64,000 nt of DNA, taken from the NCBI RefSeq assembly GCF_016757965.1, contig NZ_JAEKIW010000003.1:62001-126000 (forward strand). The letters are read 5' to 3'. This document shows, in pieces, positions 21,998 to 29,731 of the stretch. The translations under genes and the position numbers were made by a program. Positions within the stretch are counted from its first letter, which is position 1. Each line of letters starts with the position of its first letter. The notes beneath the pieces are model-generated. The model saw only the letters and a list, made by a program, of their open reading frames with translations. It did not search any database and was not told the origin of the DNA. The DNA is from Archaeoglobus neptunius (lineage in GTDB: Archaea > Halobacteriota > Archaeoglobi > Archaeoglobales > Archaeoglobaceae).

Positions 21998-22201
21998 TTA
22001 TCCACCAGAGATTACTCTGATCACTTTAACTTCGCCAGGCTCCGCCACGTCATCTGTGGGTACCGGGAGCCCGTCCTTAACGACGACCACGGACTCAGGA
22101 TTGATTCCAAGCGAATCCAGAATTTCCGAGTACCGCTGACCATTAACTTCAACTGTAACCTCCTTTTTATCAAAACCGATAAAATTAATTTTGAGCTTCA
22201 T
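21998..22201 (-). CDS. Ubiquitin-like MoaD/ThiS-family protein (SAMP-like)
   Basis: A 67-residue beta-grasp protein ending in VIRVISGG. The C-terminal Gly-Gly is the activation site of MoaD/ThiS sulfur carriers and of archaeal small modifier proteins (SAMPs). SVVVVKDGLPVPTDD fits ThiS/SAMP2-like members. The start codon overlaps the stop of the 52-aa gene upstream (ATGA), so the two are translationally coupled. Whether it serves in tRNA thiolation, molybdopterin or thiamine synthesis, or protein conjugation is not decided here. Confidence 0.85.
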   Translation of the reverse strand: MKLKINFIGFDKKEVTVEVNGQRYSEILDSLGINPESVVVVKDGLPVPTDDVAEPGEVKVIRVISGG

Positions 22202-22356
22202 TCTTCCGGGAGAACCTCTTTTGATATCTCCTTAATGCTCTCTCCAGCACGGACGTTCTTTATTTCCGGTACAATACTTTCGATCAGCTTTTCATCTTTG
22301 CTAAAAAGCTTTCTCTTGCCCTTTCTCCTGTACTTTCTCCAGTTGAACCTCCTCAT
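22198..22356 (-). CDS. Small basic protein, 52 aa, coupled to the SAMP-like gene
   Basis: A short gene reading MRRFNWRKYRRKGKRKLF at its N terminus, then a helical acidic half (KDEKLIESIVPEI, ESIKEISKEVLPEE). Its TGA overlaps the ATG of the ubiquitin-like gene as ATGA, the coupling used throughout this window. The N-terminal 18 residues carry 10 Lys/Arg, consistent with RNA or DNA contact. I do not recognise the family. GGGTGAT lies about 5 nt before the ATG. Confidence 0.5.
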   Translation of the reverse strand: MRRFNWRKYRRKGKRKLFSKDEKLIESIVPEIKNVRAGESIKEISKEVLPEE

Positions 22357-22677
22357 GGAATCACCCAATCTAATATAGTGTGAGAGGAAATAGAAATAGT
22401 TTTTGATTCAGACTGCACCTTCCGGATACCCTCAATCATAACACGCCCTTTGTTGGTGATCTGTCTTGTGAGAAAGCTTATCGATTAATGCAGAAGGGGA
22501 TCAGATAGCTCAAGATAACATGAACGGTTTTAATGGACGTTAATTTGAAGTTACTGTCGGGTTGCTGGCGTTTTATGTCATTCTCGGCAGCACATCAGAA
22601 ATCCACGAGAAAACTGTATATTTCCAAAAAAATTAAAAATGGCTTTCACACTACATGCAATCTTGATCGGGAGAATA
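22357..22677. other. 321-bp stretch left of the integrated element without a convincing gene
   Basis: This stretch lies between the 52-aa gene and the left att repeat. On the minus strand an open stretch with no good start (22353 to about 22483) ends with TGA overlapping the ATG of the 52-aa gene. Part of it, ITNKGRVMIEGIRKVQ, has a helix-like look, so it may be the tail of a decayed gene. TAATATAG at 22371-22378 is TATA-like but only about 19 nt from the 52-aa start. CTGTATATTTCC near 22614 is another TATA-like run. I see no RNA gene. Confidence 0.35.
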
Positions 22678-22705
22678 AATGGGCTCGCCCGGATTCGAAC
22701 CGGGG
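22678..22705. repeat. Left attachment repeat (copy of tRNA-Val 3' end)
   Basis: This 28-bp sequence is identical to 29309-29336. It contains the T arm and 3' acceptor strand of tRNA-Val (GGGCTCGCCCGGATTCGAAC followed by CGGGG on the plus strand). The bases on both sides differ between the copies (A versus T on the left, CTAAAA versus ACCTCC on the right), so the 28 bp are the exact core. Confidence 0.9.
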
Positions 22706-29104: not shown

Positions 29105-29365
29105 TATGGTGGATCAACATTTAGAGAAGAGATCTCGCCGAAAAGAGTCAGAGAACTCAAAGATTTGCACATTACAATTTCAAAGGAGAACTATATATTT
29201 CTAAAAGAAAATTTTAGAGGAAGGATTTCAGAGACATTCGATAAACTTGTGGGCTGGCTCAGGACTGGAGAGCCAGCAGAAATCCAGATTTTAAGAATAG
29301 GAGGTTTTAATGGGCTCGCCCGGATTCGAACCGGGGACCTCCTGCGTGTGAGGCAGGCGTCATAA
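29084..29365 (+). CDS. Small integrase-adjacent protein, possibly DNA-binding
   Basis: The frame encodes a charged protein with the conserved-looking core HITISKENYIFLKENFRG and RISETFDKLVGWLRTGEPAE, a short strand followed by two helices, which could be a ribbon-helix-helix-like fold. The frame runs into the att repeat and the antisense tRNA, so residues after RIGGF are att-encoded and would differ in the excised circle. It lies directly upstream of the integrase start, as an excision or control factor would. The family is not recognised with certainty. Confidence 0.5.
   Translation: MHERVRTYGGSTFREEISPKRVRELKDLHITISKENYIFLKENFRGRISETFDKLVGWLRTGEPAEIQILRIGGFNGLARIRTGDLLRVRQAS
29309..29336. 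repeat. Right attachment repeat within tRNA-Val
   Basis: Identical to 22678-22705 over 28 bp. Here the repeat is continuous with the complete tRNA-Val body, so this is the end at which the tRNA was kept intact by integration. Confidence 0.9.
29310..29351 (+). pseudogene. int: int(N): separated 5' end of the integrase gene
   Basis: A strong ribosome-binding site AGGAGGT (29299-29305) stands 4 nt before ATG 29310, which reads MGSPGFEPGTSCV and stops in the tRNA antisense strand. In an excised circle the same ATG would continue into the integrase body found after the left repeat. This is the SSV-type arrangement, in which integration splits the int gene. Confidence 0.7.
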
Positions 29366-29497: not shown

Positions 29498-29731
29498 ATG
29501 AAAAGTGTTGATTGTATAGGTCTTTACTGCCCTGAACCGGTATTCAGAACAAGAAAGGCCATAGAAGAGGCACGAGTTGGAGAAATAATAGAGGTTCTTG
29601 CAGACGATCCTGCAGCGGAGTCAGACATCCCAGTTCTGGTTAAAAAACTCGGTCAGGAACTGGTTGGATTTGAAAAAGATGATGACGGAATTCTTAAGTT
29701 TACCATCAGAGTGGTAAAGGAGGTGAGATAG
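29498..29731 (+). CDS. tusA: TusA-family sulfurtransferase
   Basis: A 77-residue sulfur-carrier protein with the hallmark CPxP in DCIGLYCPEPVFRTRKAIEE; Cys11 would hold a persulfide. LADDPAAESDIPVLVKKLGQ completes the fold. It is the first gene of an operon with DsrE-like, IscS, IscU and two small proteins, pointing to sulfur delivery for Fe-S clusters or thiolated molecules. Confidence 0.92.
   Translation: MKSVDCIGLYCPEPVFRTRKAIEEARVGEIIEVLADDPAAESDIPVLVKKLGQELVGFEKDDDGILKFTIRVVKEVR

Follow-up and report, generated by a model that had tools for sequence, protein, structure and literature searches.

A conserved small protein encoded beside a SAMP2-family ubiquitin-like protein in Archaeoglobus neptunius and other archaea

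Introduction

Archaeal ubiquitin-like proteins (Ubls) have two roles, carrying sulfur and modifying proteins, and the way in which they choose their targets is poorly understood. The passages of PMC2948915 available to us describe arCOG07188 as an uncharacterized small protein adjoining URM1-like genes in Sulfolobales. The small protein studied here is not mentioned in the abstract, section 3.2 and those passages of the same article, and the literature searched contained no description of it. A passage of PMC11456600 reports a 70-aa 'MoaD' in M. mazei, which may correspond to the SAMP2-like gene downstream of the small gene, the product of which has 70 aa in the relative G382.

Here we describe a cysteine-free small protein that is encoded with SAMP2, and in one genome fused to it, and that offers a concrete candidate for a factor in Ubl target choice.

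Results

The window, by which we mean the whole stretch of 64,000 nucleotides of Archaeoglobus neptunius DNA that was analysed, contains on its minus strand a small gene (22198–22356) that reads from an ATG at 22356 through 52 codons to a TGA stop at 22198. The encoded protein has a basic N-terminal half and an acidic C-terminal half, and 10 of its residues 1–18 (MRRFNWRKYRRKGKRKLF) are Lys or Arg, in agreement with the basic N terminus reported in a first-pass annotation of this DNA. An alternative TTG start in the ORF list would give a 56-aa protein. The ATG start was preferred, because homologues start at MRRF and because a Shine–Dalgarno-like GGGTGAT (22360–22366, minus strand) is placed just 5' of it. 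With a motif set of our own choice, 90 of 142 loci had a Shine–Dalgarno-type motif at −17 to −4 relative to the small gene, compared with 4 of 142 for a control stretch lying farther upstream. Codons 12–16 (22309–22323, minus strand) encode a KGxxK motif, the K, G and K columns of which are invariant in 142/142 homologues; this invariance is a description and not an independent test, since the homologues were picked by a profile containing KGxxK.

Directly downstream lies a gene for a 67-aa protein ending in VISGG (21998–22201, minus strand), with the C-terminal Gly-Gly encoded at 22001–22006. The protein passes the Pfam SAMP2 model PF21965 over residues 1–64 (67.7 bits, cut-off 27), and fails both the Pfam ThiS model PF02597 (18.9 bits, cut-off 22.5) and the NCBIfam SAMP2 equivalog NF041919 (59.2 bits, cut-off 70). 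It matches the PDB SAMP2 chains 2l32 and 4hrs with E about 2.5e-8, and TtuB is among its PDB relatives. Judged by these matches, the gene is best called a SAMP2-family Ubl, and the SAMP-like ubiquitin-fold neighbour of the first-pass annotation is upheld. The genome itself (G000) contains two matches to PF00899, which represent E1-type genes. The stop codon of the small gene and the start codon of the SAMP2-family gene overlap in an ATGA at 22198–22201 (minus strand), with the ATG at 22201, as had been claimed. The strict coupling read from this overlap is common without being general, since a start with the 4-nt overlap is available for the SAMP2-like gene in 70 of the 129 linked loci.

Conservation of the small gene was examined in 55 genomes of the family. 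A single-sequence search matched the small protein in 44 of them at E < 1e-6, and a profile search added two more. Absence from relatives and stop codons in the orthologues had been named beforehand as signs against the gene, and neither was found, the small protein being present in 46/55 genomes and the strong matches having no internal stops. All 46 genomes contain SAMP2 as well, 45 by search and one in which the gene is cut by a contig end and is partly visible. The other nine, which have no strong match to either the small protein or SAMP2, are mostly incomplete assemblies, with G027, G032 and G054 being 91–96% complete. Comparison with same-genus homologues gave dN of about 0.09–0.11, with synonymous sites near or at saturation. 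The small gene differs at 33 bases from its same-genus homologue L006; when these differences were permuted, none of 5000 runs gave a count of changed codons as low as the observed 10. Conservation and codon-level selection rule out a chance ORF or artefact, and the 52-aa frame is a real gene under purifying selection.

A profile of the Archaeoglobaceae copies picked up shorter relatives in other families, and a broader profile (A3), applied with an E-value limit of 0.05, matched 148 of the 392 phylum genomes, of which five weak matches (E 0.0026 or worse) were discarded to give a count of 143/392. The genomes containing the small protein include those that we take to be Archaeoglobus fulgidus (G001), Methanohalophilus mahii (G069), Methanococcoides burtonii (G233), Methanocella paludicola (G075) and Methanothrix species (G127 and G377). 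No motif-bearing ORF was found near SAMP2 in the loci of families f10, f15, f20 and f22 (presumably haloarchaea-like), f7, f4, f14, f24, f25 and others, for which the absence of the small gene rests mainly on the phylum profile search. In a further genome containing the small protein, G382, eL24 matches the PDB chain 9nri_BV and points to Methanosarcina acetivorans, to which the entry 9nri is assigned in a passage of PMC12605026.

The homologues are mostly about 38–66 aa in length, with a median charge of +5 over residues 1–16 and −5 over the remainder. An AlphaFold model of the small protein is all helix, at low confidence (mean pLDDT 67, pTM 0.26). Searches of the 52-aa protein against Pfam-A and NCBIfam gave no matches, and those with diverse homologues (10 against Pfam and 31 against NCBIfam) gave only sub-threshold matches at chance level, which rules out a known domain. 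A PDB profile search with the family likewise gave chance-level matches only (malate dehydrogenase, 0.037). The small protein is not among the modelled chains of the M. acetivorans ribosome in the entries of the PDB copy searched, and these chain searches rule out a constant subunit of that modelled ribosome. The small protein represents an undescribed archaeal family that is cysteine-free, probably helical and marked by KGxxK.

The position beside a sulfur carrier could also suggest a relay enzyme, either E2-like or a sulfurtransferase. A cysteine is present in 1/142 homologues and none is conserved, so that the small protein cannot relay sulfur and cysteine-based chemistry is refuted; together with the lack of a known domain, this leaves a relay enzyme with virtually no probability.

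The arrangement of the locus was examined in 142 of the 143 genomes, with G044 left out, although its small-gene and SAMP2 coordinates adjoin. In 129/142 loci, the gene immediately downstream on the same strand is SAMP2-like. In loci with longer flanks, the outer neighbours vary by genus and the pair of small gene and SAMP2 is constant. A neighbour table, for which 65 loci (L078–L142) were scanned and rows were made only where the small gene was detected, showed no thiolation gene or thiolase as a constant neighbour in the loci tabulated. Two same-genus relatives (L079 and L080) have genes for a small membrane-like protein and a protein that we label DHH/RecJ-like as the nearest genes upstream of the small gene, an arrangement that is not constant; a Ubl-associated RecJ complex has reportedly been described in Haloferax.

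In a single genome of the 142, G063 (L256, reverse strand 1501–1815), the small protein and SAMP2 form one 104-aa frame, with the small-protein domain at residues 1–34, the SAMP2 domain at residues 42–104 and a tail of SGG. Codon 41 of the fusion, a GTG, is a possible internal start, from which the SAMP2 part may be re-initiated.

Linked SAMP2 is missing in 13/142 loci, one of which (G033) is at a contig end. The other 12 come from genus g26 (five of its seven genomes), genus g110 (three) and family f18 (four); the occurrence of the small protein is therefore not SAMP2-specific. The g26 genomes contain a SAMP2 remnant with an in-frame stop, for example TLEK*LNILDIYQETLLIQK in G198 compared with TYEKVLEILDINQETVLILK, and no remnant was recognized in the g110 and f18 genomes. 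After the loss of SAMP2, the small protein is still constrained, with dN 0.09 and dS 1.36 (G307 against G377), and dN 0.08 and dS 0.75 (G081 against G130). Within the five g26 genomes, 2 synonymous and 1–5 non-synonymous changes per pair are too few to judge. The small gene has thus outlasted its better-known operon partner. E1 (PF00899) and a ThiS/MoaD-type Ubl (PF02597) are retained in 10 of the 12 SAMP2-less genomes, and neither was detected in G081 (94% complete) and G130 (63%). A PF01171 PP-loop ATPase, a superfamily that we take to include the thiolase NcsA, is present in 12/12, which is barely informative because each of the 29 genomes and each of the 14 controls gave a match. In the opposite direction, SAMP2 is matched in 343/392 phylum genomes and the small protein in 143/392, so that SAMP2 frequently functions without the small protein.

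These distributions bear on the proposal of the first-pass annotation that the small protein is a partner or target of the Ubl. The linkage in 129/142 loci, the natural fusion and the conservation of the protein speak for such a relationship, but not for an obligate one, as 12/142 loci keep a constrained small protein without linked SAMP2, and the small protein is missing from no fewer than 200 of the 343 SAMP2-matching genomes. The same data are relevant to a regulatory leader peptide, the translation of which would set SAMP2 expression by coupling, with an unimportant product. The ATGA in the window and the overlap starts in other loci would suit such a peptide, but constraint at the amino-acid level over several families, persistence without the downstream gene and the fusion make it highly improbable, and we regard it as nearly refuted.

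Persistence of the small gene can also be read in favour of an independent factor, small and associated with RNA or the ribosome, that only shares a transcript with SAMP2, each of the two serving translation on its own. Purifying selection persists after SAMP2 loss in both of the pairs compared, five of the seven g26 genomes lost SAMP2 and retained the small protein, and the N terminus is basic. However, the pair outlasts all other neighbours and has once been fused, suggesting more than co-transcription, and no related PDB chain was found despite the M. acetivorans ribosome entries. We consider an independent factor possible, though not probable.

The linked SAMP2 itself has changed in some lineages. 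It ends in QG, RG or KG instead of Gly-Gly in 22 genomes of family f5 (for example L103–L105, L107, L110 and L113), and in AG or SG in 11/11 genomes of family f21 that have the gene (for example L112, L116, L122, L127 and L129), so that a Ubl with a Gly-Gly tail has been worn to xG in two lineages. The last Gly is preserved in all 33 eroded tails among the 129 linked SAMP2, and seven others have a few extra residues beyond GG. Since Ubls of the UFM1 and ATG12 types have just one terminal Gly, SAMP2 with an xG tail may still be active. Some f5 genomes (G276 and G140) have a second SAMP2-like gene elsewhere, which matches via the C-terminal end of the model.

Erosion of the tail is relevant to a further alternative, in which the small protein is a SAMPylation target: SAMP2 would be attached to its invariant lysines, possibly to provide a feedback switch. 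The two KGxxK lysines are found in all 142 homologues, and the passages of PMC2948915 propose proteins encoded next to Ubl genes as targets. Lysines are, however, frequent in basic proteins of any kind; the small protein is nearly unchanged in SAMP2-less genomes, and the loss of Gly-Gly in 33/129 linked SAMP2 may weaken conjugation. A SAMPylation target therefore appears improbable.

Upstream of the small gene, 28 bp from the 3' end of a tRNA-Val(CAC) are perfectly repeated in direct orientation, at 22678–22705 and 29309–29336 of the window, 6631 bp apart. The repeats enclose a DUF1156 methylase frame, which ends at the repeat, together with two PIN genes, a gene for a MazE-type antitoxin and one for a 773-aa protein that has no Pfam match. 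The bracketed segment looks like an integrated element. Just beyond it lies a gene for a TusA-family sulfur carrier (29498–29731); its participation in the system of small protein and SAMP2 was ruled out, as it has no homologues in the 259 loci compared.

Discussion

Our preferred explanation, which we put forward tentatively, is that the small protein is a non-catalytic adaptor of the SAMP2 pathway, or of that of another Ubl, with its gene placed first on one short mRNA. An adaptor would explain the linkage, the fusion, the charge pattern and the missing cysteine. It is supported by the 129/142 linkage, the co-occurrence in the family, the fusion, the purifying selection and the helical model, the latter at low confidence. 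It is also supported by the presence of E1 and a ThiS/MoaD-type Ubl in 10/12 SAMP2-less genomes, and of PF01171 in 12/12. From these data we infer a shared mRNA that would yield the small protein first and then SAMP2. Through a central amphipathic helix, the small protein may bind SAMP2 or a partner common to both (E1 or a thiolase), and the basic N terminus would tether the complex to tRNA or another RNA–protein particle. Binding of RNA through the basic KGxxK end is perhaps possible, an idea derived from charge only, and the link to tRNA thiolation suggested in the first-pass annotation is drawn from charge together with the known roles of SAMP2.

Several observations weaken the adaptor explanation. 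Linked SAMP2 is absent from 12/142 loci, with G081 and G130 lacking detectable E1 and ThiS-type Ubl as well; many SAMP2 genomes are without the small protein; the fusion is single and has a possible internal start; there is no constant thiolation neighbour; the RNA idea is based on charge; and the AlphaFold model is of low confidence. Because the small protein survives the loss of SAMP2, an adaptor requires the extra assumption of another partner: where linked SAMP2 has decayed, the small protein would serve another Ubl or the thiolase itself. Such a partner is possible, because inorganic sulfide is enough of a sulfur source for NcsA of Methanococcus maripaludis to thiolate tRNA in vitro, according to the passages of PMC10067955 available to us.

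In a wider form, the adaptor would represent a new class of Ubl accessory, a KGxxK protein that brings a free Ubl to RNA, is sometimes present as an N-terminal extension (G063), and can switch partners after decay of the Ubl. We regard this generalization as rather doubtful. Genetics exist in Methanosarcina.

Comparison with known systems places the downstream gene within the SAMP2 family (PF21965) by its Pfam score and GG end, with the difference that it is below the NCBIfam equivalog cut-off; the 52-aa protein is itself not a Ubl. The TtuB–TtuA and URM1–Ncs6 relays for tRNA thiolation are similar in combining a Ubl sulfur carrier with a PP-loop thiolase, but in the family and PDB searches, no known component of these relays resembled the small protein. 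Compared by its description in the available passages of PMC2948915 only, arCOG07188 belongs to another lineage and accompanies another Ubl family, but like the 52-aa protein it is uncharacterized, small and Ubl-adjacent.
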